A DNA stretch of 64,000 bases from Liolophura sinensis (lineage: Eukaryota > Mollusca > Polyplacophora > Chitonida > Chitonidae). Below the pieces are notes generated by a model. That model ran no database searches and was not told where the DNA came from. It was given only the letters and a program-made list of their open reading frames with translations. Made by a program: the position numbers and the translations under genes. Of this stretch, positions 827 to 51,184 are shown piece after piece (position 1 is the first letter of the stretch; every line of letters begins with the position of its first letter). The DNA is taken from positions 6,026,017 to 6,090,016 of the forward strand of contig NC_088307.1 in assembly GCF_032854445.1 (NCBI RefSeq), in the 5' to 3' direction.

Positions 827-910
827 CTGGGAGACTTTCTTTGTAAGTTCATCCCGCTCATGTTGTAGTTGTTCCACAATCTGTAATGACTCCTGGCTCT
901 TGTTCTCAGT
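827..910 (-). CDS. GOLGA2: GOLGA2 coding exon 14 (last in window)
   Basis: Residues 356-383, TENKSQESLQIVEQLQHERD then ELTKKVSQ; human has ESVRQLQMERDKYAENL. Acceptor AACCAG|ACT, donor CCAG|GTATGA. The first 11 exon bases and the acceptor recur in the adjoining 49-bp array. Confidence 0.88.
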
Positions 911-3900
911 CTGGTTGTTCAACTGTCAACACAAAACATAACACGTACATGTTCTCAGTCTGGCTGCTCAACTGTCAACACAAAACACAACACGAACATG
1001 TTCTCAGTCTGGTTACTCAATTGTCAAGGCAACACACAACATACACCTGTTCTCAGTCTGGCTGCTCAACTGTCAACACAAAACACAACATGTACATGTT
1101 CTCAGTCGGGCTGTTCAACTGTCAACACAAAACACAACACGTACATGTTCTCAGTCTGGCTGCTCAACTGTCAACACAAAACACAACATGTACATGTTCT
1201 CAATCTGGCTGCTCAACTGTCAACATAAAACACAACACGTACATGTTCTCAGTCTGGCAGTTCAACTGTCAACACAAAACACAACATGTACATGTTCTCA
1301 GTCTGGCTGCTCAACTGTCAACACAAAACACAACACGTACATGTTCTCAGTCTGGCTGTTCAACTGTCAACACATCACACAACACATACATGTTCTCAGT
1401 CTGGCAGTTCAACTGTCAACACAACACACAACACGTACATGTTCTCAATCTGGATGTTCAACTGTCAACACAAAACACAACACGTACATGTTCTCAGTCT
1501 GGCTGTTCAACTGTCAACACAAAACACAACATGTACATGTTCTCAGTCTGGCTGCTCAACTGTCAACACAAAACACAACACGTACATGTTCTCAGTCTGG
1601 CTACTCAACTGTCAACACAAAACACAACACGTACATGTTCTCAATCTGGATGTTGAACTGTCAACACAAAACACAACATGTACATGTTCTCAGTCTGGCT
1701 GTTCAACTGTCAACACAAAACACAACATGTACATGTTCTCAGTCTGGCTGTTCAACTGTCAACACAAAACACAACATGTACATGTTCTCAGTCTGGCTGT
1801 TCAACTGTCAACACAAAACACAACATGTACATGTTCTCAGTCTGGCTGCTCAACTGTCAACACAAAACACAACACGTACATGTTCTCAGTCTGGCTACTC
1901 AACTGTCAACACAAAACACAACACGTACATGTTCTCAATCTGGATGTTCAACTGTCAACACAAAACACAACATGTACATGTTCTCAGTCTGGCTGTTCAA
2001 CTGTCAACACAAAACACAACACATACATGTTCTCAGTCTGGCAGTTCAACTGTCAACACAACACACAACACGTACATGTTCTCAATCTGGATGTTCAACT
2101 GTCAACACAAAACACATCATGTACATGTTCTCAGTCTGGCTGTTCAACTGTCAACACAAAACACAACATGTACATGTTCTCAGTCTGGCTGCTCAACTGT
2201 CAACACAAAACACAACATGTACATGTTCTCAGTCTGGCTACTCAACTGTCAACACAAAACACAACACGTACGTTCTCAGTCTGGCTGCTCAAATGTCAAC
2301 ACAAAACACAACATGTACATGTTCTCAGTCAATTGTCAATACGTGCAAGTAATAGTTATTATACAATTGATAATGCTTGATTTATTTATGCTGTTAACTT
2401 AATAAATGTTTTACTCCGAATTCGAGAACACATTGACGACCAGCATTAAGGTGTGAGGAAACCTGGCAGAGCCCGGGGGAAACCCACAACAATTTTCATC
2501 ACATTAAATGATATCTTCACAATGAAGTAAACTCACCTGATTTGTATAAATTTCCACCATTTCCAATTTCTTCTTCAGTTCCAAAACATTTTTTTCTAAA
2601 GCTGAACATTCTGAAACCTGGATAGATATTCACAATGTGGTTGATATGGGAAATACAGAAAGTGGCGAGCTTTCATAAGTGTCGCAATGAGGCATCCGCG
2701 AAATAACCGCAAGTGCACAACAACTGAAGTTGCAGCTAAGCCAGGAAGTCATGATGTCTATCTACACGGTAGATGTACACAGTGATTATGGATATATATG
2801 CAGGGAAATTGGCCATCTGATATTGGCCACAGTAACCACGGAAACGGACAAATGTGAGGCATGACACTTAATTACCTCTTTATCATCTGTATGTATCCAC
2901 CAAAATTAGAACTCCACATACAAAACAACAAGACTTTATTACTACATCTATTTATTTCTAGAGGAGATACAGAGAAAAGGAACATCTGTATTTATGTATT
3001 CACCAAAAGCTACAACAGTACATGCAAAATTATCTAATTAATTATAATCTAATTAGCCCGGGAACCGGTTCTGATGAACAAAATTGCACAATAATACACT
3101 ATGCCTATGTGAAATGGCATATAAACTATTTTTTGACTAAAAATCCTGTTACACAGATGCAAAATTACTAACAGAACATGTTGTGTGATTTTGAAATTTG
3201 AATATTCACCCATTTTAACTGCTTTTGCAAACAGAATGAGACATGTTTTGTCTTGAAGTGGGCTTGATTTTATCAACCACTAGTACTACAAACATCTGAA
3301 ATGAAATCAAACATTTTTGTCCTGTACTTACCTTTGATTGTAGTTTCTCATTCAACTCTGAAGTTTTTTGTTTAAATTCTTCTTGAGATTTGCTGAAAAG
3401 AAATGAACTCAACTTTTTGATAATAACCTTACATCATTTCAAAAATGATATCAAGACTTTATCTTTTAGTCCAATGCTAATTTTGTCTGATTATACCTCA
3501 TACTTTAAAAATGATCTATTTATTCACTTATTTAATTCATCTTTAACCCCATGTTCAAAAATATTTCACTTATACATATACATGAAACATGGCTTTCAGA
3601 AGTACAGGCAGAAGAAACCATTATATTATTTATGCAAGGATGAAATTTCCTTCACTGATAAAAGTGATATTTCACTCATTTAGATATCACTTTTGTTATC
3701 ACAATTTTAAAATTTCACTCCCAGGCACCATGAGGTCAAAAAAGAAATATTTATGATATTCAACCTTCATTGTGCAATATACTCCATTTTCTCAAGCTAT
3801 AAATCCTGACTTAACTTGAAGCAGCTTACAACCAACCTTGAGATTTTCTTAACACTATGTCAAGTGTTCTTGTGAAATAATAATCAGTTAGCTGTTGAGT

Positions 3901-9900: not shown

Positions 9901-12900
9901 GCTCACAGGGGCTTCTAGCTCAAAGATGATGAAGGACACCACTCTCCAAGTTAGAATGTGACACGGTTACATTACGCTAATACAGTGTACAGCTAACTTC
10001 AGCTGATTTTAGATGAGTTCATTTTCAAGATACCGGTATTGCCCCAATTTAAGAAAAAGCTGACAGACTAGAGAACAGGGCGAAGACAAGTCCTGCGAAC
10101 ATTTCAGAGTCAGGTTCTAAAAACTTCCAGTCTAAATCTATTGAATATATCACCTGTAGCTGTTCCTTGAGTGATCCGAGATCTTTTCGTAGGCGATCCT
10201 CAAATCCATGCCTCTCCTGGAGGAGCTGATCCTGCAGGTTCTGGGAATGTGATCTCTGAAACAACAACACTATCATTGTTGTCATAACTACAGACTGACT
10301 GTGCATGTAGATAAATTAGAAGATAAACAAACTAACTCAGTAATATGTTACCGGCGCACCCCAAACTTCATGTTTTTTATCGCTTCTGTTTAAGGGAGAC
10401 ATACCCACGCTGCCATAGTAATTCAATGGCTGGAGCACTGCTGATGTGGTTTCAATCCACAACGAATCAAATCCGACTACAACCACTACATGTAATTAGA
10501 CCTCCGAACCAATAACATGGTTATACTATTTTCAACAATCTTTCAACATTTGTTAAAAATATCCAACATATTTCACTTAGACATAATTTTGTATGAACTT
10601 ATGTATCTATGGCGTGTATGTGATACAGAAACAACTCACGAGCTGCTGGACCTGAGAGTTGAGCTGCTCATTGGCCTGTGCATGTTTCTCCAACAGTGAG
10701 GCCAGCTCTCTGTTACGAGTCTGGAAACAGAATACACCAGTAAAGAGTTACACAAACATACACCTAGTGCAATGTACACTTAATGCCAACATTGAGGCCA
10801 CCTCTCTGTTCCTAGTCTGGAAACAGAATACACCAGTAAAGAGTTACGCAAACACAACCTAGTGTAATGTACACTTAATGCCAACATTGAGGCCAGCTCT
10901 CTGTTACGAGTCTGGAAACAGAATACACCATCTAAGAGTTACACAAACATACACCTAGTGTAAGGTACACTTAATGCCAACACTTAGGCCAGCTCTCTGT
11001 TACGAGTCTGGAAACAGAATACACCAGCAAAGAGTTACGCAAACATACACCTAGTGTAAGGTACACTTAATGCCAAACATTGAGGCCACCTCTCTGTTCC
11101 GAGTCTGGAAACAGAATACACCAGTAAAGAGTTACGCAAACACAACCTAGTGTAATGTACATTTAATGCCAACACTTAGGCCAGCTCTCTGTTACGAGTC
11201 TGGAAACAGAATACACCAGCAAAGAGTTATGCAAACATACACCTAGTGTAAGGAACACTTAATGCCAACATTGAGGCCACCTCTCTGTTCCGAGTCTGGA
11301 AACAGAATACACCAGCAAAGAGTTATGCAAACATACACCTAGTGTAATGTACATTTAATGCCAACCCTTAGGCCAGCTCTCTGTTACGAGTCTGGAAACA
11401 GAATACACCAGCTAAGAGTTACGCAAACATACGCCTAGTGTAAGGTACATTTAATGCCAACATTGAGGCCACCTCTCTGTTAAGAGTCTGGAAACAGAAT
11501 ACACCAGCAAAGAGTTATGCAAACATACACCTAGTGTAAGGTACACTTAATGCCAACACTGCGGCCACCTCTCTGTTCCGAGTCTGGAAACAGAATACAC
11601 CAGTAAAGAGTTACGCAAACATACACCTAGTGTAAGGTACACTTAATGCCAACACTGAGGCCAACTCACTGTTACGAGTCTGGAAACAGAATACACCAGC
11701 AAAGAGTTATGCAAACATACACCTAGTGTAAGGTACATTTAATGCCAACACTGAGGCCACCTCTCTGTTAAGAGTCTGGAAACAGAATACACCAGTAAAG
11801 AGTTACGCAAACATACGCCTAGTGTAAGGTACACTTAATGCCAACATTGAGGCCAGCTCTCTGTCCGAGTCTGGAAACAGAACACACCAGTAAAGAGTTA
11901 CACAAACATACACCTAGTGTAAGGTACACTTAATGCCAACATTGAGGCCACCTCTCTGTTCCGAGTCTGGAAACAGAATACACAAGTAAAGAGTTACGCA
12001 AACATACGCCTAGTGTAAGGTACACTTAATGCCAACATTGAGGGCCACCTCTCTGTTACGAGTCTGAAAACAGAATACACCAGCTAAGAGTTACACAAAC
12101 ATACACCTAGTGTAAGGTACACTTAATGCCAACATTGAGGCCACCTCTCTGTTCTGAGTCTGGAAACAGAATACACCAGCTAAGAGTTACACAAACATAC
12201 ACCTAGTGTAAGGTACACTTAATGCCAACATTGAGGCCATCTCTCTGTTACGAGTCTGGAAACAGAATACACCAGTAAAGAGTTACGCAAACACAACCTA
12301 GTGTAAAGTCCACCTAATGCCAAGAGTAAGGCCAGCTGTTGCGGGTCTGGAGAATAAATACAACAGCACTGTGTTGAAGTGTAAAATTTAAATGATTAAA
12401 GTAACGGAAAAGTACACCTAATGCCAACAGTAAGGCCAGCTCTATGTTGAAGGTTTGGAGAACTATACATGTACACCAGTAAAGTGTTACATAAAAATAC
12501 CAGCCCACAAAGTGTAACCATTAGTTAGCTACACCAATGCAAAAGTATATTTGTGTATATGTACATGTACTTTTGGGCTTCAGTCTATTGGCTATTCAAA
12601 TGTACTTTTTCTAATTTTTAGGACATCTTGTCTACTCTTTTTAATCACTATACATGCAAAATGTAACAAAAATACAGTTTCTCTGTTCTAATATGGCTAG
12701 TCCATCTGATCTACAACGTACACATATCTTTTCTTGCTGGAAAGACTGATAGAGAGTTTTGGTGTACAGGTGCATGCTATCGGCACTACCAATATCTGTC
12801 CTAAAACAATAAGAATTAAAACAATAAGAATTAAAACAATCACTTTCACATAAAAATACACAAAGTGTACACATAAAATAAAACACACCAAATACAAAGT

Positions 12901-22476: not shown

Positions 22477-22665
22477 TGTGTCATGGATGCCATCAGTGTG
22501 GGGGTGTTTGCGAAGAAGCCCCTCAAGGAGGTGGTCACACCCCACAAACTCTCCGTCCTCAGTCTAATCTACGACTACAGTGTGATGAAGAGCAAGTCAG
22601 ATGAGAAATACTTCACACAGAAACAGATGAGGAACTTCATGACCTGTGTGCTCAAACTTCTTCAG
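22477..22665 (+). CDS. ANAPC5: ANAPC5 exon 1 (coding from 22483)
   Basis: Residues 1-61, beginning MDAISVGVFAKKPLKEVVTP; six 5' UTR bases follow the acceptor TTGTGTACAG. Donor CTTCTTCAG|GTAAAG. The last 27 exon bases (MTCVLKLLQ) plus this donor are the source of the 66-bp array. Confidence 0.93.
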
Positions 22666-25600
22666 GTAAAGTGTCAGATTGTAGTCTCAAATTTCTCCTG
22701 TCTCATGACCTGTGTGCTCAAACTTCTTCAGGTAAAGTATCAGATTGTAGTCTCAAATTTCTCCTGTCTCATGACTTGTGTGCTCAAACTTCTTCAGGTA
22801 AAGTATCAGATTGTAGTCTCAAATTTCTCCTGTCTCATGACTTGTGTGCTCAAACTTCTTCAGGTGAAGTGTCAGATTGTAGTCTCAAATTTCTCCTGTC
22901 TCATGACTTGTGTGCTCAAACTTCTTCAGGTAAAGTATCAGATTGTAGTCTCAAATTTCTCCTGTCTCATGACTTGTGTGCTCAAACTTCTTCAGGTGAA
23001 GTGTCAGATTGTAGTCTCAAATTTCTCCTGTCTCATGGCCTGTGTGCTCAAACTTCTTCAGGTAAAGTGTGAGCTTGTAATCTCAAATTTCTCCTGTCTC
23101 GTGACTTGTGTGCTCAAACTTCTTCAGGTGAAGTGTCAGATTGTAGTCTCAAATTTCTCCTGTCTCATGACCTATGTGCTCAAACTTCTTCAGGTGAAGT
23201 GTCAGATTGTAGTCTCAAATTTCTCCTGTCTCATGACTTGTGTGCTCAAACTTCTTCAGGTGAAGTGTCAGATTGTAGTCTCAAATTTCTCCTGTCTCAT
23301 GACTTGTGTGCTCAAACTTCTTCAGGTGAAGTATCAGATTGTAATCTCAAATTTCTCCAGTCTCACGGCCTGTGTGCTCAAACAACTTCAGGTAAAGTGT
23401 CAGATTGTAGTCTCAAATTTCTCCTGTCTCATGACCTGTGTGCTCAAACTTTTTCAGGTAAAGTGTGAGATTGTAATCTCAAATTTCTCCTGTCTCATGA
23501 CCTGTGTGCTCAGACTTCTTCAGGTAAAGTGTGAGCTTGTAATCTCAAATTTCCCCTGTCTCATGACCTGTGTGCTCAAACTTCTTCAGGTAAAGTGTGA
23601 GCTTGTAATCTCAAATTTCCCCTGTCTTATGACCTGTGTGGTCAAACTTCTTCAGGTGAAGTGTGAGATAGTAATCTCTTGTTTCTCCTGTCTCATGACC
23701 TGTGTGCTCAAACTTCTTCAGGTAAAGTGTAAGATTGTAATCTCAAATTTCTCCTGTCTCATGACCTGTATGCTCAAACTTCTTCAGGTAAAGTGTGAGA
23801 TTGTAGTCTCAAATTTCTCCTGTCTCATGACCTCTGTGATCAAACTTCTTCAGGTAAAGTGTCAGATTGTAGTCTCAAATTTCTCCTGTCTTATGACCTG
23901 TGTGCTCAAACTTCTTCAGATAAAGGGTAAGAATTTAGCCTCAAAATTTTGGTGTCTCATGACCTCTGTGATCAAACTTCATCATATATTACACTGTCTG
24001 TAGTCTCAAATTTCTGACGTCTTCATGACCAGCGCAGAAGCTTCTCACCAGTGCAGTCTCCACGAGGTCAACACCAGCTAAATAAATAAATCATGACCTG
24101 TGTACTAAGACTTCTTCATGTAAGTGTCATAGCGTTCAGTATTAGAAGGAAGGTGTGTCGAAACATTAGGTGGAGAGGGTCAGGATTCATTAGGGTATTG
24201 TTCTTAATATTGTTTATTTTCTCTCTCTCTCCCCTGACAGAGCCCAGATGTACCACTGCAGAAACTTCTGAACAACCTGAAGGGAACTCTCAGTCCCTCA
24301 TTACAGGAAGCCTTCTCCAACAGGTATAATGCTGTTGTGGAGAACAAGATAGGCAGGGAGAAAAATTCTTCTGGATGTTGCTGATTAATTAATTAAAACC
24401 TTGCATTTTGTCTGGCGTTAAACAACAATAAAATTGGTTGGGGGTTTCCTCCCATCATAATGTTGGTTGTCATCGTATATAAGTAAACTATTCTTAGGTA
24501 CGGCGAAAACACCAAAGCAAAAAAGGACAAATGAACTATAATTGCATGTATCAAAAAATAAGTTTAAAATTAAAAGTGCACATACTGTAATTCATTACTT
24601 TTTGCCTTATTAATTAGTAATTCATTAATACTTTTTGTGAAACCCTGAAATTGGCCAATTAAACCAATGTAGTTCTGTCTCCAAAATCAAATTAGGGATA
24701 TGCAGAATTTACATTGAAAGTTGCTCTTGTACGTAAAAAGGTTGAGAAATTATATACCTTTTGGTACAAAAACTTTTAAGTTTTGTGACATGTCTCCTGA
24801 TTGTTTGTTGTACAGGTTGAAAGAGTTCTACTCTGACGGAGTCAGCCCCATCATGGATTTCTTCCAGACTTTGTCAGAACTTCTGTCTACTGACAGAGGG
24901 ACTGTGATCAGCAAGACAAGTTTCTTAGGTAATCCTTGTGGAGACAAGCTATGGTTAACTTTAGCTTGCTGCATTATTTTGCCATTTTTCCTCGCCATAC
25001 ACGTAAAGCCTGAAAACGGCAAAGCTGGCATAAATCGCTGATTCCATCGCGTCCTCCATCTTTAATACCCAATAATTTATGCTGGGGGTGTGTTGCCTCT
25101 CAGCCAGTGAGAGTCATTAAAACTGCCTGCTTGTTCCTATAAACTCGGAACCTATGTCCAACATTCCGGTTTCCCAATCGTCAAGCGGGTAAATGAACGG
25201 TACTGTTCGCTACCTTCTGAGAAGAAGAGTTCTACCGGAAATGTACGAAGTGCACTTTGGCGGTTTCTGACAGCAATTCTCCCCAAACACAGAAGACTTC
25301 AGGACTAGTTCTTAGGCAAAATGGAGTCGCCCACAGCGGATGTTGGCATTAACTTTATTTATAATTTATCAGCTTGAGTACATATTAGAATTTTTTTAAT
25401 CGCATGTACCTGCGAGGAAATACATACTCTTTTCAATGGTATTTGATTAATATTTACATTTTCTTCTCCTGTGATATTGGAATTTAACTAGCAGGTTTAA
25501 AGGGATCTCCAATGGGCGTTACATACCATCGCAGTATCCGAGACGTATTTGAAAATTTTTTGAGCATGGCATGAAAGCCTAATGTTATATGATGTTTACA

Positions 25601-28600: not shown

Positions 28601-31600
28601 CTGCTTTGCTCAGCAGATGTGGCTTGACGTTCGAGTTGAACAAGTGAAAGTAAGGGCAGAACAAACACCAATTCATGTATTAATTAGCTTGATTCAGTTT
28701 GATGTATTGATTAAGGTAATATTTTGATTAAGGTGATATATTCATTAAGGTGGTATCTTCATTAAGGCTTATGTTGAAGAAAGTTTAAATATGTTAATGC
28801 AAGCTATTCTTGTCAAGGGGAAATTCCATGTTTTGGTAGACTCACTCATCAAAATATAGTGTTGGTCACCTGTGAAAGTGAAAGCTATCATAAATGTGAA
28901 GAATTCTTGAGTTCTACAATCAAATAAAGAAATAAATTCCTGAAAATAGGACATGAGCTTCACTTCAGCTGCTGTTGTCAAACCTTTCAGGGTCAGTTTT
29001 TTTAGCAAAAAATTGTAAATAATATGTTTTCATTTCCCCAGGTTTTTCTACTACAGCACAATGAAAATGAAGCAATGCCCCCTGATAAACTTCAGGATAA
29101 GATTTCAGAGATTCTGAAAATAAACCCTGACTTAACAGAAGCGGTGAGTATAAATGGCTCAATTGTTTCACAGATTTTACAGATGTAGATATCTGTCCAT
29201 TTTATTTTCAGATTCACAACTACTAACATTTGGGGGCCGATGTTGATAGCATGCCAACAGAGTGCAATCACCAAGGAGCCTCTGTGATTTCATTTCCAGC
29301 TCATGCTGGCTTCTTCTTGGCAACCTGCGGATGGTCGTGTGTCTCTCCGGAGTCAGTTATATGTCTTCTACATAGTTACATGCTTCAGTAGCTAGGACAC
29401 TTGAAGTGTGGACTTAAATGCGACCTTGCAAAGGGAATTGCTGGATTCCCCAGCTCTGACTACTGATCTGGCCTTATGTTTATACAGGACGATTCGGATG
29501 GCCAGTATCAAAGTCTACCCTAATTCCTCAGCCTTTTCACAGATGAAAGAGCAACTTTCAGTGCAATTTTGTTCTTGGAGACAAACCTCCATTGGTTGGA
29601 TTGGCCAGTTTCAGGGCTTCGCAAAATGTGTAATTTTATCAGTCAGCACAGAATAATGCCTTCAGAATATGCTTAAATAAACACCTTGCAAACATGCGAA
29701 AGGGCTGAAGAAATACAGTAGTGTTTGTTGAAGAGGAGGCGCTGGGATCACAATCTTAGACTTAAGTCTAAATTTTAATCGTTAAATTTGGTGTCTTCCT
29801 TTCTGTTATTTTAGCCTAAAGTTGTTGTACAATAAATTAACAAGGGTTAACGTTATCAAGCAATATTTTGACCTTGTTACCACAGAAATTCTGACTAAGC
29901 CTGTACACGTTGCTCTGCGATCCTGGGGCCGCTTGTCTTACACTCTGTACGTTACACATGGGAAATTTTGTCAGGAACTTGCCAAAAGTCAAGGGTTTAT
30001 CCTCCACCTTAAACAAGCAATGAAATAAATATTTATTTGTTGTGTTTTGCAGCATTTCCTGAGCTACCTGAACAACCTAAGGGTGAAAGAGTACTGCACT
30101 GCTATCCATAATCACTATCACTACTTTGACAGACACAAGTTTACCTCCACTGACTCGGGGAACTCTTCAAACAAGTCCAAGGATGAGGACATTGGCAGGA
30201 GATATGCAGCTCTTAACTTGGCGTCACTCCACTTCCGATTTGGTCATAGGTAGAAAAACTGGCAGTTTTGAGTAATTCCTGAGTAATTGAGTAATTAATA
30301 ACCATATGTTACAAGCAGTTTTTTACTTTTCTGAATAATGTTTAACTTTCAACTTTTCTCCCCAAAATTCCAATTAGAATGTTCCAGTTGTAAGAGGAAA
30401 GGTCTGACAGAAACCTGCAGATGATTGTGGGTTTCCTCTGGACTCTGCCCGGTTTCTTTGCACAATAATGCTGGCTGACGTAGTATACGTGAAATTTTCT
30501 TGAGAACAGAATATAACTTCAGTCAAAGAAATAAATAAATGAAACCAATTTGAATGCAATGAGTTAAAAATGTAGTTTTATGTAGTTTTTTTTTTTGATT
30601 TCCAGAAAAGAGTCTTTAGCTGCGCTGCAAGAAGCCATTAAACTTGCTCAGGAATCAAATGACCATGTTTGTCTGCAACATGCCCTGGTGAGTGATTATC
30701 CAATGATTACAATGTATTCTGTAAGTTAGTAACCAATCAGAATCATGCACATGTATGTGGTAAGTGAATCACAAGTGAAAAGGTTGTATGGTGAGTAACC
30801 AATCAGAATCATGCACATGTATGAAGTAAGGGAATGACAAGTTAAAAGGTTCTATGGTGTGAGCAACCAATCTACCACGCTGTTAGTTGTGGGCCGTGTG
30901 CAAACATACATGTTAAATAGAGATGACCTTTCAAACAACGAGTGGGTCACACAACACACCGGCTGGTATGTTTACCTCCCTGAGTAATATCATTTCGTGC
31001 TGTTTATGTCTACAAATAAACAAATTTGAGTTTGTTTACTTGCTAGATTTGCTTCCTGATTAATATAAAGGTAAACTATCAGGATTTCCTTCAGAGAAAA
31101 AAGTGTTATTTCGCACTGTTTATATTTTTTATATTTTACACCCAGATGCCATAACAATAAAAAAGAAACATTTGTTTCAAGATGTTGCGAGCTCAGCGGT
31201 ATGACATCATAATACTGTGAACTTTTTCATTTCTGTGTCACACAACAATAAGACATGATGTCATACATACACAGCTTTGAGGTTTCTAGGTCAACTGCTT
31301 TAGCCTAAGCTTGTCGTTGATTGGTCTAAAATGCATGAACTCTGTGGAGGGAGTAAAACAGAATGGCATCATGAAATATACAGTTTTTGCCACATTTTCT
31401 TCATTTCTTGTGGTACAGTACACTTAAACACTTTCGTCTTGGTGTTTGTTGTGTAACCCGATCCTGATGAGCCATGTTTCTTACCTTGTCAAATCCCTTG
31501 GATGCTGCGCATTCTCACTGTTTGACTCGATTCGAAACAAGGTTCAGTGGTATTGGGTTACACAACAAACACCAAGACGAAGGTGTTGAACCCTTAATCT

Positions 31601-34600
31601 GAATACATGTACATGTATGGAGTAAGTGAGTCAAAATGTTGTATGGTGTCAGTAACCAGTCCAAATGATTTAGGTAGTACCATAAGTGATAACAAGTCAA
31701 AATGTTGTACAGTGTGAGTAACCAATCCAAATGATTTAGGTAGTACCATACGTGATAACAAGTCAAAATGTTGTACAGTGGGAGTAACCAATCCAAATGA
31801 TTTAGGTGGTACCATAAGTGATTTCCGTGTCAAAATTTTGTACAGTGTGAGTAACCAATCCAAATGATTTAGGTAGTACCATAAGTGATTACCGTGTCAA
31901 AATGTTGTACAGTGTGAGTAACCAATCCAAATGATTTAGGTAGTACCATAAGTGATTACCGTGTCAAAATGTTGTACAGTGTGAGTAACCAATCCAAATG
32001 ATTTAGGTAGTACCATAAGTGATTACCGTGTCAAAATGTTGTACAGTGGGAGTAACCAATCCAAATGATTTAGGTGGTACCATAAGTGATTTCCGTGTCA
32101 AAATGTTGTACAGTGTGAGTAACCAATCCAAATGATTTAGGTGGTACCATAAGTGATTACCGTGTCAAAATGTTGTACAGTGTGAGTAACCAATCCAAAT
32201 GATTTAGGTAGTACCACAAGTGATAACAAATCAAAATGTTGTACAGTGTGAGTTACCAACCCAAATGATTTAGGTAGTGCCATAAGTGATTATCGTGTCA
32301 AAATGTTGTACAGTGTGAGTAACCAATCCAAATGATTTAGGTCATGCCATAAGTGATTGTCATGTCAAAATCAAACACTGTAAAACAGGATGTTTCACAA
32401 TCATTCAGAAATTGAAAATTTAAGATGATGAATTCAGTCCTCTGTGTTTTACTCTCGTGCTTTGAATGCGCTGGAAGTAAATGATGCACGTTTTAATTGG
32501 TGTTGTGAGAATCCCATGATACAATATACAATACAATAAGTAAATTAAGAAATAATGATTTTTTCATCTTTTTATCTTTTATTTTCTGTCATTGTTGTTC
32601 ATTTTAGCACAGTAAATGTGAAAAAGATTGAATTTTGAAACAAGACAATTCTTTAAACTTTTACATATTTATTATGCTGGAAAAATTAAGTTAAACAGCC
32701 TTCTACCCATCCCCCGCTTTATTCACTTGTCCTCTATCACCAAATGGCGAGCCTCTGAGACTGACCAACTTTTCACTCAAAGCACGGGGCTGAAGCATGT
32801 TTGCAACAAATCAGAATTCCTTATTGGTTTTCGTGTAAATTTTTCTCTTTTTGTCATGTTGTCTTCTACATTTATCCACGTGATTTTATTGTCTGTGTTA
32901 ATAAATTTGATTGACAAGTGAGATACTGTGGGAACATCTCCTTCCTGTGAAATGTTGTCACTCAAAGTCGGCCGTGTAGTTAGACGATCTAAAGTATAAT
33001 CCAATGTCTTCTTTTGCTGACAGGGTTGGTTGTACAGGTTTAGGCTTGGAGGAGAACGTACAGCTGTGAATCAGATAGAGAGGTCAACAGTCAACTGTGA
33101 TGATCTGAACCTACCAGTGAGTTCAACCTATGCTACCCTTAAGTAATTCACAGGCCTGTCTGGCAGTGGGGTTGGATGGGGGAGGAACTGAGAGGGTGTC
33201 AGTTAGGAATAATGGGCATCTGTGGTTGCCTCATGCAAGTTCAAATCCAGCTCATGCTAGCTTCCTCTCCGGTGGTATGTTGGAAAGTCTGGCAGCTACC
33301 TGCAAATGACACTGGGTTTCTTTCAGGGCTCAGCCTGCTTTTTTCCCACCATATTGCTGGCAGCAGTCATGGAATATTCTTGAGTACGGCGTAAAACACC
33401 AATCAGATAAATAAATAAAAGAAATACCACTAACCAGGTGAAAGATAGTGGTGTACCGCATGCATTTTAGTTTTCTTCGCCTCATAAGCTTTTCTGCCAT
33501 TTTAAATTAAAGTCCAAACTAGATGGATCAGTTTTCTGTGTTTGCATTTGAGCTATACTCAAGAAATGAATTCAAGAAATGAAAACACCCTTTTCTTGTG
33601 TTACAAAGTAACCTATAATCAGCCAGTTTTAAGTTTAAGATTCACCTTTTAATGGTGAAGATGCCAATTCTTGTTGTTTATTTAAGATGTTTTCAACATT
33701 TCAGTACCTGACATCATTAGGGTTCCAGGCTTATGCGCGGCATGATGCGTTATCTGGGGTCAAACCTGCCAGGTCAGTATACATGGTTATCTCCCTTGGA
33801 AGAATTTTCTGTTTAATTCATTAGCTGGCCACAGACCCCCATTAGTTTTCCATAAGCGACAGTGTTGACGTTTAGCGCTGTAGCTCAGCCCCAAACATTC
33901 TGTGGCCAATAAGCTTTGGTGCATACCTGGCACAGCCTGTGAGAAAGCAGTCATAAAAATCTTGACGCAGGTTGACCTTCAAAATCTGGACCTTTCTATG
34001 CCGGCAGTTGGGAGGGGTGCCTAGCAACACCAAGGGGATGTCACTCACAGCCTCATCACTACCTGTCTCCTTGTGTCCTTTCGCCCAGAATTTCAAACTT
34101 TCATCATTAAAACTCATACCTGCCCAAAGCTTAGAATGTATGCCAAGAAATATTTGTGTGATCCTGAAAAAAAAAATTTGGAAAAAGAATCATGGTTAGC
34201 AACAAAAGCATGCGCAATAAAGGGAATGCAATTTCTTGAAATGTACAGGGTGGCCTCACTGTAAGGTGTGAATGTAAAATCAGGTATGACAAAAGTGTAA
34301 ATGCAGCAGATTTACTTCATAGTGCAACTGTTAGGAAAGTCTGTAGTAAAGCTGATGTTGAAAGACAGTATTCCAGAATATTTCACTATTAATTTATTTA
34401 TTTGATTGGTGTTTTACGCCGTACTCAAGAATATTTCACTTATACGACGGGGGGGCCAGCTTTATGGTGGGTGGAAACAGGGCACAGCCCGGGGGAAACC
34501 CATGACCATCCGCAGGTTGCTGGCGGACCTTCCCACTTACAGCCGGAGAGGAAGCCAGCATGAGCTGGACTTGAACTCACAGCTTGTTGAGAGACTCCTG

Positions 34601-37600
34601 GGTCATTACGCTGTGCTAGCACGCTAACCAACTGAGCCACGGAGGCCCCCCACTCTGTTAATGGAAAAAATTCAACTACAACAGAACATTGATAGCACTG
34701 CCTTGCAGTAATCTAATTTTGACTCCATAAATTGTTGATGCACGTGTTCTACAATATTAAGTCCTACGAGGGCAAACTGCTGTCATTTTTTACATGAAGT
34801 AAGCAGTATCTGGTATATTTGTGTAGTCTCATAGTATATTTGCGTTCAATAATAATCTCAATTGGTTAGCGCGCTAGCGCAGCGTAATGACTCAGGAGTC
34901 TCTCACCAATGCGGACGCTGTGAGTTCAAGCCTAGCTCATGCTAGCTTCCTCTCTGGCCGTATGTGGAAAGGTCTGTCAGCAACCTGCGGATGGTTGTAG
35001 GTTTTCCTTGGGCTGTGCACGGTTTCCTCCCATCATAATGCTGGCTGCCATCGTATAAGTGAAATATTCTGGAATAGCGCATAAAACACCAATGAAATAA
35101 GTCAATAATAATGAAAAAGAAAATGCCTGTCTGGTGTAAACAGCTAAAGTTGCATATAGATGCCTTGACTTGTCCATTATAATTATATTCAAATTTGCCT
35201 AGTAGTAGTAGTGATACTGACTACACTATGATAAACCATACTTGCATTTTCTTGATGTTTGTTTCTTTTCTTCTCCAGTATTTTCGAGCACTTTGTGAAG
35301 AGTGACTCTCTGAGCTGCAAACATTCTCAGTTAAACTTCATGTGTATTAGCTATGCTCAGAAGGCAGCCCTGTGGCAGATGTATGGCAAAAGGTAACCAT
35401 GACTACTCCTATAGCTTGTCCCATGATGACTGCATATTTGCTATCATCATCATCATCATCAATGAATACATTGACTGTAAACTCACAGCTAGATGATGTA
35501 CAATATGATGTATATTGCATTATTTGTAAGCCAATAAGTTATTTTTTGATTAATTTAATTTGTCTTAAAATTTTTGTAGTATCCAGGTGTACACTGTTAC
35601 TTGGGGGCTCCCCAAAGAGTAATGGCGTGAGGATTGTATATTTGCTCTCATCATCATTTTCATTACCATCATCATTGTCATTACCATCATCATTAGCAAA
35701 TTCGGTGACTGTAGTAGAGCAACTGCGGGTGTTTTCTTGGAATGGAATCTTTTGCCTTCATCGATATGGCATGCACATTGAGATCCTTCTTGGAGGATTG
35801 GTGGAGGGAACCAGTGTGCTACATGTGGAAATGTTTGTGAGTTACTTACCAAAGGCCGATGGTTCATCCCGGGCATTCCGCTTTCCTCCAGTCTTACAAC
35901 ACTGTCACTGAAGTATTCCTGAGGTTATCTGTAGTCAAATGAATAAAAATCGCTTAAGGTATGTGTAGCAAATCAGTAGAGCAAAAAGGAGCTTCATTTC
36001 TCCATGTTAGTTCGTCTGTCTGTCTGTCTGTCTGTCTGTACCTGTCTGCCTGTCTTTCTACGTGTCTTCAGCATTGAGTTTTCCTTTTCCAGAGAGATGA
36101 GTTCTATGTGCTCACAGTTGATCCTACACCTGGATACATCTGACTGTGGCATTTATCATTGTGGAGAACCTGGCTGTATAGCGCTCTGTACTCTGGCTAA
36201 ACATCATACTCATCAGGTACAAACTGGGTAAACACCATACTCATCAGGTGTAAACTGGGTAAACACCATACTCATCAGGTAAAAACTGGCCATTCCCATC
36301 GGATACAAACTGGCTATATACATATACCATACTCATCAGGTGTAAACTGGGTAAACACCATACTCATCAGGTAAAAACTGGCCATTCCCATCGGATACAA
36401 ACTGGCTATATACATATACCATACTCATCAGGTGTAAACTGGGTAAACACCATACTCATCAGGTAAAAACTGGCCATTCCCATCGGATACAAACTGGCTA
36501 TATACATATACCATACTCATCAGGTGTAAACTGGGTAAACACCATACTCATCAGGTAAAAACTGGCCATTCCCATGGGATACAAATGGGTTAAATACATG
36601 TACCATACTCATCAGGTGTAAACTGGGTAAACACCATACTCATCAGGTAAAAACTGGCTAAACACCATTCTCATCGGGCACAAACTGGCAAAATACCATG
36701 CTCATCAGGTGTAAACTGGCTAAATACATGTACCATACTCATTAGGTGTAAACTGGGTAAACACCATTCTCATCAGGTACAAACTGATTAAATACCATAC
36801 TCATCAGGTATAAACTGGCTAAATATTGTACTTATCAGGTGCAAACTGGGTAATCACCATACTCATCAGGTGTAAACTGGCTAATCACCATTCTCATCGG
36901 TGTAAATGGAATAAACACTATACTCATTGGGTCTAAACTTGCTCAGCAGCATACTCATCAGGTATCAGCTGGTTAAGCGCCATATTCATTAGGTGTGAAG
37001 TGTTCACATCAGGTGTAAATGGCTAAGTTTATTTATTTATTTATTTGATTGGTGTTTTACGCCGTACTCAAGAATATTTCACTTATACGATGGCGGCCAG
37101 CGTTATGGTGTGTGGAAAACGGGCAGAGCCCGGGGGAAACCCATGACCATCTGCAGGTTTCTGGCAGACAGCTAAATTTATCAAGCTTACATACATACAT
37201 ACATACATACATGTACATACATACATACATACATACATACATACATACATACATACATACATACATACATACATGTACATACATACCTACATACATACAT
37301 ACATACATGTACATACATACATACATACATACATACATGTACATACATACATACATACATACATACATACATACATACATACATACATTCAACAGGCTTC
37401 CACAAATATGGCATGCACATTGACCTTGTTTTGGGGGGGGAAAATCTGTACATGACTTGGAAAAGTTTGTCAGTTGCCTGCCAAAGGATGGCGGTTTATT
37501 TCTGGCACTCTGGTTTCTTCCACCCACTCACTTGAGTAGAGCATTAAACACAAATCAAATTAAATTAAATTTACTCATCGTGCTTGGAAATGGAGGTAAA

Positions 37601-40600
37601 CCTCGCCAGCAAAATTTTAATGTCCAGTTGTATTATCTTGCTAAATATGCCAACCATACACATGTTGTTGTTGTTACAGGGCTGTTATTCAGCTGCTTAT
37701 GAGGTGATCAACAATATTAAGAAACATTACCCAGCGTCCTCTCAGTACGCCCATATATGGATGGCCTGCGAACAGGAAGTGAATTTTACGAAGGCAATGC
37801 TTGCTGGGAACTGGAGTCTAGCTGAAGAAAGTGTAGATAATATGAGGGCAGTGTGTCAACATGAGGCAGATATCAGGTGATGTGTCAGCATGAGGCAGAT
37901 ATCAGGTGATGTGTGTGTATGAAGCAGATATTAGGTGATGTGTCTGCATGAAGCAGATATCAGGTGATGTGTCTGCATGAAGCAGATATTAGGTGATGTA
38001 TCAGCCTGAGGCAGATATCAGGTGATGTGTGTATATGAGGCAGATACCAGGTGATATATCAGCCTGAGGCAGATATCAGGTGATGTGTCAGCATGAGGCA
38101 GATATCAGGTGATGTGTCTGCATGAGGCAGATATCAGGTGATGTGTCAGCCTGAGGCAGAGATCAGGTGATGTGTGTGTATGAAGCAGAGATTAGGTGAT
38201 GTGTCTGCATGAAGCAGATATCAGGTGATGTGTCTGCATGAAGCAGATATTAGGTGATGTATCAGCCTGGGGTAGATATTAGGTGATGTGTCAGCCTGAG
38301 GCAGATATAAGGTGATGTGTCTGCCTGAGGCAGATATCAGGTGATGTGTCTGCATGAGGTGGATATTAGGTGATGTGTCAGCCTGAGGCAGATATAAGGT
38401 GATATGTCTGCATGAGGCAGAAATCATGTGATGTGTCAGCCTGAAACAGATATCTGGTGATGTGTCAGCCTGAGGCAGATATCAGGTGATGTATCAGCCT
38501 GAGGCAGATATCAGGCGACGTGTCTGCATGAGGCGGATATCAGATGATGTGTCAGGACGAGGCAGATGTCAGGTCATGTGTCAGTCTGAGGCAGATATCA
38601 GGTGATGTGTCTGCATGAGGCAGATATCAGGTGATGTGAATGCATGAGGCAGATATCAGGTGATGTGTCTGCATGAGGTGATGTGTCAGCATTATGCAGA
38701 TATCAGGTGATGTGTCTGCATGAGGAAGATATCAGGTGATGTGTCAGCCTGAGGCAGATATCAGGTGATGTGTCTGCATGAGGCAGAAATCAGGTGATGT
38801 GTCAGCGTAAGGCAGATATCAGGTGATGTGAATGCATGAGGCAGATATCAGGTGATGTGTCAGTCTGAGGCAGATATCTGGTGGTGTGTCAGCCTGAGGC
38901 AGATATCAGGTGATGTGTCTGCATGAGACAGATATCCGATGATGTGTCTGCATGAGTCAGAAATCATGTGATGTGTCAGCCTGAAACAGATATCTGGTGA
39001 TGTGTCAGCCTGAGGCAGATATCAGGTGATGTGTCTGCATGAAGCAGAAATCAGGTGATGTGTCAGTCTGAGGCAGATATCTGGTGGTGTGTCAGCCTGA
39101 AGCAGATAGGTGATGTGTCTGCATGAAGCAGATATCAGTTTTGATTTTCCGTGAATTGATACATATCCCATAGTTACCATGATAACCAGAAGATCATTAC
39201 CTTTCAGTAACCCAAGAAAATGTTACAGGAATACAAATATATTTTCTTGTCTTTGTTTTAACTCCTGAAGTTTGTGCTTTAGTTTTTTTCTTGGTAAATG
39301 GATACATCAACAGCAATATTTTTCCAAATCTGCACTTACCCAAAGTAGAGGTTGTCATGGAAACCCAGTTGTCATTGCCTTCAAACACATATTTATTCAG
39401 GCTTGTCTTAAATACACTTTTTCACAGTGTTCCTTTATGCCTTCTATTTAAATCAATGCAGGCGAGCAGTGTTGTTGAAGGAGAGAGGGGAGACAACTGT
39501 AGCACTGACTCTATTGCATAAACTGCTGAAAGAGGATCAAGAGTGGGGAGAAGAGCACCTGACAGACGAGCTCCAGTTCACAACAGAGTACAGATGCAGG
39601 TCAGAAACCAAGTCATTTTAGCCATGTGGGAGTGAACGATTTCTTTTGGAAAACTTGACTACACTTCTGTGACAAAGTCATATGAAATGGCTGCAATCTC
39701 CGTTATGAAGCAGAAGTCCCGGGACTGGTTTTCATGCGACTTTGTAATGATTTTTTCATGGGTTTATTAACATTTTGTCCTGAGTAGAGTGTAGACCTTT
39801 GGTTCTGACGTTTTTTTCAGCGGTCATAAAATCATTTTGGTTTCTTGCAACAAACTGTCAAGGTGTGGGTCAGGCTCAAACAAACTGTTGGATATAGCAA
39901 GGTCAATTTCCTGCTGGAACTTTTTGGAGAGTTTGGTTAGAGGAAGCAGGTAAAGGTTAGTAGGTAAAATGTTCCCTGAATGTTTAGTAGGTAAAATGTT
40001 CCCTGAATGTTTAGTAGGTAAAATGCTTCCTGAATGTTTAGTAGGTAAAATGTTCCCTGAATGTTTAGTAGGTAAAATGCCCCCTGAATGTTTAGTAGGT
40101 AAAATGCCCCCTGAATGTTTAGTAGGTAAAATGCCCCCTGAATGTTTAGTAGGTAAAATGGTCCCTGAATGTTTAGTAGGTAAAATGGTCCCTGAATGTT
40201 TAGTAGGTAAAATGTTCCCTGAATGTTTAGTAGGTAAAATGTTCCCTGAATGTTTAGTAGGTAAAATGCTTCCTGAATGTTTAGTAGGTAAAATGCTCCC
40301 TGAATGTTTAGTAGGTAAAATGTTCCCTGAATGTTTAGTAGGTAAAATGCTCCCTGAATGTTTAGTAGGTAAAATGCTCCCTGAATTTTTAGTAGGTAAA
40401 ATGTTCCCTGAATGTTTAGTAGGTAAAATGTTCCCTGAATTTTTAGTAGGTAAAATGTTCCCTGAATGTTTAGTAGGTAAAATGTTCCCTGAATGTTTAG
40501 TAGGTATAATGCTCCCTGAATGTTTAGTAGGTAAAATGTTCCCTGAATGTTTAGTAGGTAAAATGCTTCCTGAATGTTTAGTAGGTAAAATGTTCCCTGA

Positions 40601-43740: not shown

Positions 43741-43744
43741 CCAC

Positions 43745-44915: not shown

Positions 44916-45176
44916 TGTATTTATTTGTTTGATTGGTGTTTTACGCCATACTCATGAATATTTCCCTTATATGACGGCGGCCAGTATAATGGTGGGAGGA
45001 AACCGGGCAGTGCCCAGGGGAAACCCATGACCATCTGCAGGTTGCTGGAGGACCTTCCCACATACGGCCGGAGAGAAAGCCAGCATGAGCTGGACTTGAA
45101 CTCACAGCAGCCGCATTGATAAGAGGTTCTTGGGTCATTACACTAGCGCGCTAACCAGCTGAGCTAGGGAGGGCCC
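44916..45176 (-). mobile_element. SINE-A with 12-bp target duplication
   Basis: Flanked by the exact 12-bp repeat CAGGGACTAATA at 44904-44915 and 45177-45188. Full tRNA head, body and tail; one of the youngest-looking copies. Confidence 0.9.
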
Positions 45177-45842: not shown

Positions 45843-46813
45843 TATACTGAATTCCAAAAGAAACCTGAATATTGCCAGTGTCAAATGGGAAGTACATTCT
45901 GAGTAATCAAAAGTGTGTAGATATGTAATTGATGTTCCAGAGACTGTTTTTCAATTTTAAAGATGAGTATCTTCCGCAAACGCAGCAAGCGTGCTGTCGG
46001 GCGGCACCAAATTGCACTGATTTTAATTTTCATATTCCTCGTGAAGCGTTTGCTAGTTGAGTTGAATTCGCTTTCTTTTCACGAAATTCTTGATCTGAGA
46101 ATGATTCTTAAGGAACATAAATCGCAGAACTGTTGCATTCGCATTTTGATGAACGTCAAAGAGCGATCGGCAACACTGAGGCAGGTTGGAACGTCTCCTG
46201 TGTCGCCAGGCATGACGTTATTCACCAGTCCACCATATACAGACTGATTGACCGCTATCAGCAGACAAACACCGTTAATGACCGTGCACGGAGGGGACGA
46301 CCTCGTGTGACGTCAAACTGTCAAGACCGCTTCATTGTCAATTCCCACCGTGGGAATCGGTTCTTGCAAGCAGCCACTACAGCTCAAAACACAGTTGGAA
46401 CAACGAACCGACCCATCAGCACCAATACTGTACTCAAACTGAACGCCGCATTCACCATCAACCCATGCAGCCAGTTACCTTACAACAACTGCAACAAAGC
46501 GTCGTTGACACTTAACATTCCTCGGAGGTTCATCCGAAGTCTCTTCAACAGCATGGGTAGAAGCTGTACTACTGGAGGTCACACTCGTTATTATTCCATC
46601 AGAAAAACAATTCCCAAAAGGCGTGGCTGTTGAACCAGATTAAATGAGTTCTCCCATTTCCATTCATTCAGAAGAATCAGCACGATATGAGCTTTTAATT
46701 GATTTATGGTCTTTTTGTGTAAGAGATATATGTTTTAATAAAGTCAAACGGCTCTTACTCATTTGCAGTTTATACTATATCTCCCATTCGCGTTTCTTTT
46801 GGAATTCAGTATA
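45843..46813 (+). mobile_element. Tc1/mariner transposon, internally deleted
   Basis: Perfect 22-bp terminal inverted repeats (TATACTGAATTCCAAAAGAA plus AC) at 45843-45864 and 46792-46813, with TA target ends. At 46140-46330 it encodes a Tc1-type helix-turn-helix (DERQRAIGNTEAGWNVSCVA, then STIYRLIDRYQQ, GRPRVTSNCQDRFIV). At 971 bp it is too short for an intact family member (about 1.3-1.6 kb); the DDE catalytic part is absent and the N-terminal portion is split between frames. Dead. Confidence 0.88.
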
Positions 46814-47047: not shown

Positions 47048-47062
47048 TATACAAATGGAAAT

Positions 47063-47567: not shown

Positions 47568-48455
47568 CATGGTTTATATCACACTTCATGGCATCGTAGA
47601 ATGTACAAACTCTTGTATCTTGTAACTCTTAAAAAAATACCCCTCCATGCAAACACCCCTCCCCTAACACACATCACCCAAACCCAGTCGTACGTCACAC
47701 AAAATATCTGATGACAGGTCATAAACAAGTTAGTTGTTAATGAAATGTGCTTAATTGTTGCAATGTCCTCTCGAAGTACAAACGAAAAACCACTAAAGAA
47801 ACCCCTAAAAAAGACCTTCAAAGACAAGAAATTTGCCCACTATCGCCTTGTGGGTTACTTACAGAATGATAAACCATGTGTGCAGCTACGTGGTTTAAGA
47901 ACAATATTACATTTAAATAAATGACCACTTCGTGCACCCTCGGGCATGTTGGATTGCTAGCACAGAAGTCCCACGGTATCTCCTGAAGTGCGCATTTCAT
48001 TTCACTGGGTGAACTGGAGCAATTCGTTTGTTGGCCATCCAATATGGTCGCGAGTGCAGGTTATGTACAAGGGTGACCCCAGTATTCTACGAGTCTCTGA
48101 TGCTGTAATTATACATATCTGGAAGTAACTGGGCATGTATGTCCTATAGCGATGATAGAAAGTGTTAAAAGGATCTGACCGAATAACATAAGCAAAAAGT
48201 TTATGATTTTACGAGTGTGTACTAGAACAAATTGTTTGATCCAAGAAAGTCAAGTTTGCCAAATTATGTAGACCCACAGAATTAATATTGCCTAGTGCAT
48301 CCTTTTAATTCACTCACGCAACCGAATGATAACTGAACCCTCTTATGTTTGTCAGTATTAGCTATGGAACTATGACAAACACACATTTTCAGTGAAGTCC
48401 CAAAATGGAATGAAGCTTTGACTGCTTTTTTTTTCTTTTCGTCCCTGAAATCAGA

Positions 48456-48653
48456 TTACAGTGGCGCAAGTTCCCGCTCAAAATGTTCGGCCAAGTAAGG
48501 AATGAATTTGATTGACTGAGAATCTTCTCCGCTCACTATACCCTCGCGTGACTCTATGGAGATCAGGAACTCGCCGTCATTGTGGATTTCCAGATTAAGT
48601 AGCGTGGGTTCAGCTGTGTTTTGAGTGACATAGTCCCTCTCCGCTTCGTATTT
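48456..48653 (-). CDS. Unknown gene, coding exon 4 with stop
   Basis: Residues 155-219, KYEAERDYVTQNTAEPTLLN onward to HFERELAPL and stop. Acceptor TCCCCAG|AAA. Confidence 0.85.
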   Translation of the reverse strand, partial: KYEAERDYVTQNTAEPTLLNLEIHNDGEFLISIESREGIVSGEDSQSIKFIPYLAEHFERELAPL

Positions 48654-51184
48654 CTGGGGACAAAGAAACCGGAGCAAGTCAATTTTGGTCAAACAGTTCG
48701 TGGGATAATAAGCTGACGGGGATAATGATTAAACCTGATCAACATTATCATTACTACATTATTGTGGCTCCTCAATCAACCAAGGTACCATCTGTACATT
48801 ATCAGGAACCTATATAGTCCTTGTTCATCTGTAAGTTATCCCAATCGATCTGTATGTCAAATCCAATACTCTTATATAAGGTCGGTCTACCATTGGTATA
48901 AGTCTACAGAAAAGGACGTCGAATCAAGTCCATTTCCATTCCGCCGTTGACAGCTGATCCGGGCTATAAGTGAGAAAATATATTAAACGTCTTGAATTTG
49001 ATTTATTTCAGTGGATGTGGGGACATTATATTGATAATCGAATGTTAATCTAAAATACCACAATGGGCCTACCTTGGATTTGAGCAGGGTACCCTCCGGA
49101 TATAAGGCATGATTTCTGCTTGGCCCCCCGCAGCAGATGAACTGAAACTTGTCGATGGGTGGAGGGTACACTCGGGATGCTTTGAAGATTGCTGTGGGGA
49201 GAAGTGAAAGTTATGAAGAGTCGCGCACAGTGGTGTTTGTCTTAACTCGAAAACGGATGTATGTGAGATACAATCTCAAGAAATCAGATTTTCTGCCATG
49301 TTGCCTGTTGCTTATTTACGTGATATGGAGTAACATCTTCACTTAACCTGGCAAACGGTACCTAAGTTCATATCGGAACTGCGGTTTCAATACACAAGTA
49401 AGTAAAGGTATCGACTTTCTACCTAAGATACGAAAGCAATATAATTCAGGATCTACGGTATAGAGAGTAAAACCGGCGGACGGACTGGTAACTGTTACCT
49501 GGGATTAAGATATACATCTTATCTATCGGTTTATCTTAATCCGATATATTGCTTGTGCTGGTACTTCAGATCTAGTTAGCGACAAGTCATTATTAACAGC
49601 GACTACTGTATCTGACTTTGGTGAGACTGGTACGCGATAATCCACATAATCCACAAAAACTGCTGCTATTCAGGATAACAGACGTTCATACTGAGGTGGC
49701 GAAAACCGAGTGCAGGACCTATATACAAGCTGAATCGAAGTGCTGGGAGCAGACAGGCAAACAACAATCCCAACAATGAAATAATAAACAAAAATCCAGG
49801 TATAGCAACTTACTGTTGAAGGCGTCTGGTTTGCCGTCATAGCACACCTGTCCGTTCTGCCTCACACACAGGTAACAATCCCCGGTCGGGCCGGCAACAC
49901 GGAACTGGAGGTACATGATGATTACCGGGATCTCGGCAGGCTCCTCCTGGGCCCGTTCCAGGAGATCGTCCCACTGATCCCTGCTCGTGATCGCTGTAGA
50001 CTGTACAGGTGGAACAGAGTGAATGAGAGGTATAATATAGACAGTGATAGATACAGAGCGTAACTAGAGGTACATGACGATTAACGGGATCTCGGCAAGC
50101 TCCTCCTGAGCCCGTTCCAGGAGATCGTCCCACTGATCCCTGCTCATGATCGCTGTAGACTGTACAGGTGGAACAGAGTGAATGAGAGGTATAATATAGA
50201 CAGTGATAGATACAGAGCGTAACTAGAGGTACCTGACGATTAACGGGATCTCGGCAAGCTCCTCCTGAGCCCGTTCCAGGAGATCGTCCCACTGATCCCT
50301 GCTCGTGATCGCTGTAGACTGTACAGGTGGAACAGAGTGAATGAGAGGTATAATATAGACAGTGATAGGTACAGAGCGTAACTAGAGGTACATGACGATT
50401 ACCGGGATCTCGGCAGGCTCCTCCTGGGCCTGTTCCAGAAGATCGTCCCACTAATCCCTGCTCGTGATCGCTGTAGACTGTACAGGTGGAACAGAGTGAA
50501 TGAGAGGTATAGTATAGACAGTGATAGGTACAGAGCGTAACTAGAGGTACATGACGATTACCGGGATCTCGGCAGGCTCCTCCTGGGCCTGTTCCAGGAG
50601 ATCGTCCCACTGATCCCTGCTCGTGATCGCTGTAGACTGTACAGATGGAACAGAGTGAATGAGAGGTATAGTATAGACAGTGATAGGTACAGAGCGTAAC
50701 TAGAGGTACATGACGATTACCGGGATCTCGGCAAGCTCCTCCTGAGCCCGTTCCAGGAGATCGCCCCACTGATCCCTGCTCGTGATCGCGAGAATTTTTG
50801 TTTTGTTTTTTCGGTTGTTTTCAGGAACCTGGAGTACCCGGAGTAAACTGCTGCCCATCAGCAGGTACCAGGTAAACCTCTTGACATGAAGTCACAGCCG
50901 CACCAACGAGACTTGAATTAAAAGATACATAAAAAAAAAAACTATAAAAGGAAGAGAGAAAAGTCGGAAAATTAGAACAGCTTTTTTGAGGCATATTTTC
51001 TCTTAGTGGTCGGAGTTGTAACGATTACCTTTAGACTAATGGCTACCTCGTCGACATCCACTGGGCCCTGCTCAGTCACGGGTGGATTCTCCACCTGCGT
51101 CTCCTTCAGGGTTCCGTCAGAATTGGGTTCTTCCACGGATTTGGAACCCAAAATGGACGAAAAGTACGCAATGACATTGCCCAT
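48456..51184 (-). CDS. Uncharacterised 219-residue protein, four coding exons, possible beta-trefoil
   Basis: I do not recognise this gene. Exons 51184-51029, 50000-49814, 49191-49073 and 48653-48456 have GT-AG borders and lengths 156+187+119+198=660, one clean frame with stop. The ATG follows acceptor TTTTTACAG|AATGGGC. The start MGNVIAYFSS fits the N-myristoylation pattern (Gly2, Ala6). Residues 10-52 are acidic and Pro/Thr-rich, likely disordered. Residues 59-76 (RDQWDDLLERAQEEPAEI) look helical. Residues 78-219 are short hydrophobic strands with YLQFRVAGPTGDCYLCVRQN, KFQFICCGGPSRNHALYPEG and LLNLEIHNDGEFLISIESRE. That pattern suggests a small beta barrel, conceivably an FGF/IL-1-like beta-trefoil, but this is a guess. 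No secretion signal is seen. Intron 1 holds five extra copies of the start of exon 2. Confidence 0.8.
49073..49191 (-). CDS. Unknown gene, coding exon 3
   Basis: Residues 115-154, TIFKASRVYPPPIDKFQFIC onward. Acceptor CCCACAG|CA, donor CCAAG|GTAGGC. Confidence 0.85.
49814..50000 (-). CDS. Unknown gene, coding exon 2
   Basis: Residues 53-114 plus one base. Acceptor CCTGTACAG|TCT, donor AACA|GTAAGT. The first about 90 bases and the acceptor are repeated five times upstream. Confidence 0.85.
50001..50789 (-). repeat. 159-bp tandem repeat, five copies of exon 2 start plus acceptor
   Basis: Period 159 bp (AGGTGGAACAGAGTG at 50007, 50166, 50325 and 50484; AGATGG variant at 50643). On the minus strand each copy has CTGTACAG|TCTACAGCG, about 80 bases of exon 2, then diverges at ATGTACCTC into TAG. 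Because 159 is 53 codons, another minus frame stays open for 310 codons; that frame is not the gene's frame. Confidence 0.93.
51029..51184 (-). CDS. Unknown gene, coding exon 1
   Basis: Residues 1-52, MGNVIAYFSSILGSKSVEEP onward to DVDEVAISLK; phase 0 donor AAAG|GTAATC. One untranslated base precedes the ATG in this exon, so a 5' non-coding exon is needed upstream. Confidence 0.82.

Follow-up and report, generated by a model that had tools for sequence, protein, structure and literature searches.

How do tandem repeats come to sit on the edges of coding exons, each unit carrying the splice site of the exon in which the array begins? The question is raised by a window of the genome of the chiton Liolophura sinensis (609,464,459 bases in 632 contigs), by which we mean the whole 64 kb stretch of DNA analysed here (contig C13, 6026017-6090016). 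The original prediction, made from this DNA, held that three neighbouring genes carry six such arrays, each repeating the end of an exon together with its real splice site.

Six arrays across exon edges

TRF recovers exactly the six named arrays in the window, with units of 29-159 bp present in about 5 to 44 copies, and together with the gene models it confirms the predicted exons, the predicted units and the repetition of an exon end with a real splice site (Table 1). In all six the first copy starts within a coding exon and the unit consists of the exon edge plus the splice site. The count of three multiplied acceptors (GOLGA2 exons 14 and 7, LOC135480166 exon 2) and three multiplied donors (ANAPC5 exons 1, 12 and 13) is likewise borne out in the window.

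Table 1. Exons and their junction arrays, in window positions
Feature	Positions	Strand	Junction or unit	Support	TRF copies	Intact dinucleotide
GOLGA2 exon 14, authentic exon	827-922	-	acceptor 922/923	open frame, GT-AG, homologue alignment		
GOLGA2 exon 14 acceptor array	901-2330	-	49 bp = 27 intronic + 22 exonic nt		29.2	AG in 27 of 29 full copies
GOLGA2 exon 7	10640-10720	-	acceptor 10720/10721	gene model, homologue alignment		
GOLGA2 exon 7 acceptor array	10690-12334	-	96 bp = 65 intronic + 31 exonic nt		17.2	AG in 17 of 17 full copies
ANAPC5 first coding exon, from ATG	22483-22665	+	donor 22665/22666	model, human APC5, NCBI protein		
ANAPC5 exon 1 donor array	22637-23984	+	66 bp = 29 exonic + 37 intronic nt		20.4	GT in 19 of 20 full copies
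ANAPC5 exon 12	36093-36216	+	donor 36216/36217	model, human APC5, NCBI protein		
ANAPC5 exon 12 donor array	36193-36994	+	31 bp = 24 exonic + 7 intronic nt		25.8	GT in 21 of 26 full copies
ANAPC5 exon 13	37680-37876	+	donor 37876/37877	model, human APC5, NCBI protein		
ANAPC5 exon 13 donor array	37852-39138	+	29 bp = 25 exonic + 4 intronic nt		43.9	GT in 40 of 44 full copies
LOC135480166 exon 2	49814-50000	-	acceptor 50000/50001	gene model		
LOC135480166 exon 2 acceptor array	49903-50789	-	159 bp = 61 intronic + 98 exonic nt		5.6	AG in 5 of 5 full copies

The ANAPC5 model comprises 17 coding exons, has GT-AG borders in 16/16 introns and encodes 774 aa; an NCBI Liolophura sinensis protein is identical to it (100% over 774 aa), and human APC5 matches it with E=7.6e-142 (aligned residues 14-772). 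GOLGA2, on the minus strand, has 14 exons within the window and an open frame of 387 aa supported by homologues, and among five aligned golgin homologues the exon 13-14 border is crossed by four and that of exons 6-7 by all five. The third gene (LOC135480166, 48456-51184), of unassigned function, has four coding exons encoding 219 aa. A Pfam search with this protein gives no significant match, and the only proteins it matches are NCBI LOC135480166 (139 aa) and P0122, a predicted protein of 172 aa on a 960-base contig. P0122 resembles exon 1 of the gene, and this similar stretch backs the coding of exon 1 (MGNV...).

Copies within an array are not identical, their units being on average 72-96% alike, and in 5/6 arrays the outermost intronic copy is farther from the consensus than the copy on the exon side. 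The ANAPC5 exon 12 array contains a 92-bp higher-order repeat. When the 65 modelled junctions are compared with the window by BLAST, junction-spanning copies appear at the six arrays, with one weak match besides; this seventh junction, the acceptor of ANAPC5 exon 15, was rejected by a shuffle test (P=0.053). The further claim that the units differ in length and share no sequence stands for the lengths and for 13/15 pairs of unit consensuses (P>0.05 in both orientations), so that the units are mostly unrelated. It does not stand for two pairs: GOLGA2 exon 14 (G14) with ANAPC5 exon 12 (A12) reversed (0/200 shuffles), and ANAPC5 exon 1 (A1) with exon 13 (A13; P=0.03), both of them short matches. 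Introner elements place related sequence in many introns, and the six window units, mostly unrelated to each other, do not show this.

Tandem arrays are generally hard to assemble, and an artefact of assembly would explain the repeats without any biology; we regard this as highly improbable. The copies differ mutually, and the structure recurs at further loci, albeit within this one assembly. The HiFi assembly, published for a species since renamed to L. sinensis (PMC12441733), is reported to rest on reads with a mean of 8,347 bp at 14x coverage, a length that exceeds every array (PMC11068029).

Placement of the arrays relative to chance

Is it surprising that arrays lie across junctions? Under a founding null, in which arrays are first collapsed and unit-length duplications are placed randomly in gene bodies, 1.79 of the 15 window arrays are expected to straddle a junction and six do (P=0.005). 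Among the arrays of at least 2.5 copies the figures are 6/14 and 1.65 (P=0.003). When finished arrays are placed randomly instead, 3.23 straddling arrays are expected against the six (P=0.08). The window was singled out for its arrays, and its P values are therefore not blind. Because the two nulls disagree (P=0.003-0.005 against 0.08), a position-resolved test was added, and to offset the choice of the window for its arrays, genes chosen regardless of arrays were sampled.

The blind sample comes from the same genome and consists of CCT/HSP60 (PF00118) and adaptin (PF01602) loci, covering 16 of the 17 loci with separate matches. Out of 50 matches to PF00118, 47 in nine loci were used and three long, intronless ones, two of them on C5 and the third on C6, were left out. 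PF01602 has 37 matches, 27 of them used (five loci), five more lying in two further loci and five unused (three long ones on C6 and C1, two on C3). The formal blind count covers 14 loci, in which 122 exon edges are labelled and 29 arrays lie; the two extra adaptin loci, taken as sequence around the matches only, add six edges and no arrays (128 edges). Labels are incomplete, and for nine matches the exon ends were set manually, by trimming or splitting guided by their translations. One straddling junction (CCT_C8, 6297) depends on this manual trimming; the remaining four come from a paired splice finder, of which an earlier and narrower version recovered 160/160 simulated known window introns.

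Arrays that straddle a junction make up 5/29 in this sample, where 1.71 were expected (P=0.023). One CCT gene carries a 109-bp donor array and a second carries donor arrays of 60 and 66 bp, and of two adaptin genes one has a 47-bp donor array (2.5 copies) and the other a 47-bp acceptor array (27 copies). These four donors and one acceptor keep AG/GT intact in 45/50 copies. Arrays occupy 30% of the intronic bases in the three window genes and 14% in the blind loci, and junction arrays number 6/65 edges in the window versus 5/128 in the blind sample; the window is rich. A CCT-gene exon on the reverse strand of L040 is flanked by two arrays (707-1249 and 1358-2528), one ending at the acceptor with a single exonic base and the other beginning 12 nt past the donor; both were scored as not straddling.

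The position-resolved test compares arrays that end inside an exon with arrays that end just outside one. With window and blind sample together, 11/44 arrays have their end within an exon, where 3.3 were expected, and 3/44 end 0-100 nt outside one (6.7 expected), a ratio of 11:3 with P=0.0007. The window alone gives P=0.0084, and the blind sample 5:2 against an expected 1.54:3.31 (P=0.037). Few arrays lie just outside exons, and therefore the excess is not explained by arrays simply tending to lie near exons. A modest, junction-specific excess of straddling arrays, about threefold, seems real. Random placement underpredicts junction arrays, and positional neutrality alone is insufficient. The original argument that chance placement is unlikely thus survives as a threefold excess over random founding, repeated in the blind sample, and weakens under the finished-array null.

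Unit length is divisible by three in 5/11 junction arrays (P=0.29), which gives no frame bias, and the exonic share of the unit ranges over the 11 arrays from 0.30 to 0.89 (KS against uniform, P=0.23), so the breakpoints are not anchored at the junction. These unanchored breakpoints and the missing frame bias fit an undirected duplication rather than a device aimed at splice signals. Each of the six window arrays sits at the right-hand (+) end of its exon (Fisher P=0.011); a general strand polarity was rejected on the blind sample, in which three of the five arrays are on the left and two on the right.

An alternative that we hold possible, with some reserve, is that junctions attract or preserve arrays. 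Attraction would mean that duplication starts more often at junctions, for instance while AG/GT borders are being transcribed or repaired. Preservation would mean that exon-anchored arrays live longer, the copy in the exon being protected from decay and renewing the array through gene conversion. The straddling-specific excess, blind and pooled, speaks for it, and copy number tends to be higher in junction arrays than in intronic ones (median 17.2 versus 5.3), a difference that is not significant (P=0.09). Against it stand the small numbers, the window that is not blind, the whole-array null, the breakpoints that are not anchored at splice sites, and sample exon labels with gaps and some manual trimming. 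A broader statement, that chiton junctions are preferred birthplaces or refuges of arrays, with a few per cent of junctions multiplied and some copies entering mRNA and changing the protein, strikes us as rather unlikely.

Are further junction arrays hidden among the purely intronic ones? Nine intronic arrays gave 2/36 donor or acceptor tests below 0.05 against 1.8 expected, and the idea was rejected. The array at 27674-28292 (31-bp unit) carries a strong donor consensus in antisense, AAGGTAAGT (P=0.003), and that at 25623-25994 a sense acceptor-like motif (P=0.043). In ANAPC5 intron 8, an array of 67-bp units (31630-32371) resembles the head of the intron (30688-30790; shuffle P=0.007); as a junction array it was rejected, since the similarity does not cross the junction.

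Conservation and use of the copies

Are the multiplied splice sites kept because they serve the cell? We give little credence to the reading that selection maintains the copies, whether as reserve splice sites or for the alternative proteins they could yield. In its favour, the splice dinucleotide is intact in 129/141 full copies of the six window arrays, and in 6/6 arrays this core varies less than the unit average. Yet 32-82% of the adjacent base pairs in each unit vary as little as the core dinucleotide or less, which leaves the core at mid-rank. Set against windows of equal length, a wider window around the splice site ranks at 0.10-0.74 and is not significantly conserved (combined P=0.38). 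The exonic portion of the unit is the more variable portion in 4/6 arrays. The proposal that redundancy buffers splicing therefore finds no support here, the core not being exceptional by rank and the wider window not being significantly conserved.

Translation points the same way. Among the copies tested, use of an alternative copy gives a stop or a frameshift in 5/6 arrays, and the LOC135480166 exon 2 array has an in-frame stop within its copies. The exception is ANAPC5 exon 1, which with its 66-bp array (22483-24001) is open for 506 codons from the ATG and would encode a 22-residue repeat, a point in favour of selection. In this array, however, stops occur in 0/35 distinct variants against 1.49 expected (P=0.185), a depletion that does not exceed chance, and the 35 variants show no synonymous excess. 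Coding selection on the open array was rejected on both counts.

Which copies, then, are spliced? For ANAPC5 the NCBI protein is the one expected if the exon-side donor is used at each of its three arrays. LOC135480166 differs: its NCBI protein, 139 aa long, starts inside exon 2, not in exon 1, and the frame of this protein is exactly that left by use of the next upstream acceptor copy, which can be counted in favour of selected copies. This protein hints that the copies are perhaps not always ignored, and a gene model lacking exon 1 would give the same protein.

Origin of the arrays and known counterparts

We consider it probable that the arrays are minisatellites of the mirage type, random tandem duplications that crossed a junction, were tolerated as the exon-side copy stays intact, and later expanded. 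If one breakpoint of a tandem duplication lay in an exon and the second in the neighbouring intron, the exon edge would be copied together with the splice site. By geometry the exon-side copy would keep the exon and its native splice site whole, and because of this the event would be nearly neutral. Slippage or unequal exchange may then expand the array, up to 44 copies, all but one of them intronic. Splicing most likely stays on the exon-side site (first donor or last acceptor); we infer this choice from exon definition, a principle of splicing, and from the precedent of the human F7 gene, and the near neutrality and the mode of expansion are proposed in the same spirit. The same geometry bears on the suggestion that selection removes arrays that destroy the junction: in part no selection is called for, since one intact exon and site always remain when a tandem duplication crosses a junction. 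The exon-edge arrangement, found at 6/65 window junctions, recurs in two CCT and two adaptin genes chosen blind. This explanation does not account for the roughly threefold excess of straddling arrays, which has no counterpart just outside exons.

The class is not new. It has been described in amphioxus under the name of mirages, which the original prediction overlooked. Reported cases are Adh3, the globins BflGb6 and BflGb9, troponin C and, as a further case (PMC3902484), PGBD5, with units of 10-72 bp in Adh3 and of 150-160 bp in the globins, at 5' or 3' edges (PMC3087553, PMC3902484). The data of one report suggest that regular splicing is undisturbed, and length instability and somatic instability are described (PMC3087553). 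As these reports present them, mirages share with the chiton arrays units that span the boundary, an occurrence at both 5' and 3' boundaries, AG/GT in many though not all copies, and unit size (29-159 bp in the chiton, 10-160 bp reported). The chiton arrays differ in that they occur in a mollusc, reach up to 44 copies, number six over three adjacent genes, one of which has three, and have their excess quantified. Among the literature matches listed, in a search that most subscription papers lay outside, there is no account of mollusc mirages and no survey of junction arrays. The novelty here is the taxon, the density and a junction excess that can be tested.

Human genes offer partial parallels. 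Intron 7 of F7 contains 37-bp repeats with the 5' splice site in the first of them, and normally only the most upstream site is used (PMC6627357). As in the chiton, the splice site lies inside a tandem repeat; F7 is a single human locus whose splicing is known, whereas for the chiton arrays we infer it. The human CBS gene has a 31-bp VNTR, c.1444_1467+7, polymorphic in people with 16-21 copies (PMC2630376). Its name amounts to 24 exonic and 7 intronic nt, the same split as in the ANAPC5 exon 12 array, a coincidence in a different gene; the likeness noted here is one of unit layout. Variable internal tandem repeats in human segmental-duplication genes lie in some cases at exon-intron boundaries and are said to create novel introns (PMC2812944). 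Unlike the chiton arrays, the repeats of that report belong to recent primate paralogues and are mostly within exons or reshape transcripts. The model of Rogers (1989, cited in PMC3087553), in which introns are gained when AG/GT proto-splice sites are tandemly duplicated, resembles the chiton arrays in that the duplication includes splice signals. It perhaps differs from them, no new intron having been seen in the chiton, whose ANAPC5 can be aligned with human APC5.

Junction repeats may be common in the chiton genome. If the sampled rates (6/65 and 5/128) hold, thousands of chiton splice sites would, by extrapolation, lie in tandem copies. Each such array amounts to a natural experiment on how the spliceosome chooses among several near-identical donors or acceptors, and junction arrays also inform how minisatellites lengthen introns.

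The window holds other elements as well. At 46060-46600 a decayed frame resembles, by eye, the N-terminal region of a Tc1-type transposase. A recurrent SINE-like element (gtgttttacgcc...), also recognised by eye, lies at 34390-34650, at 44930-45170 and in similar stretches, in introns as well as between genes.
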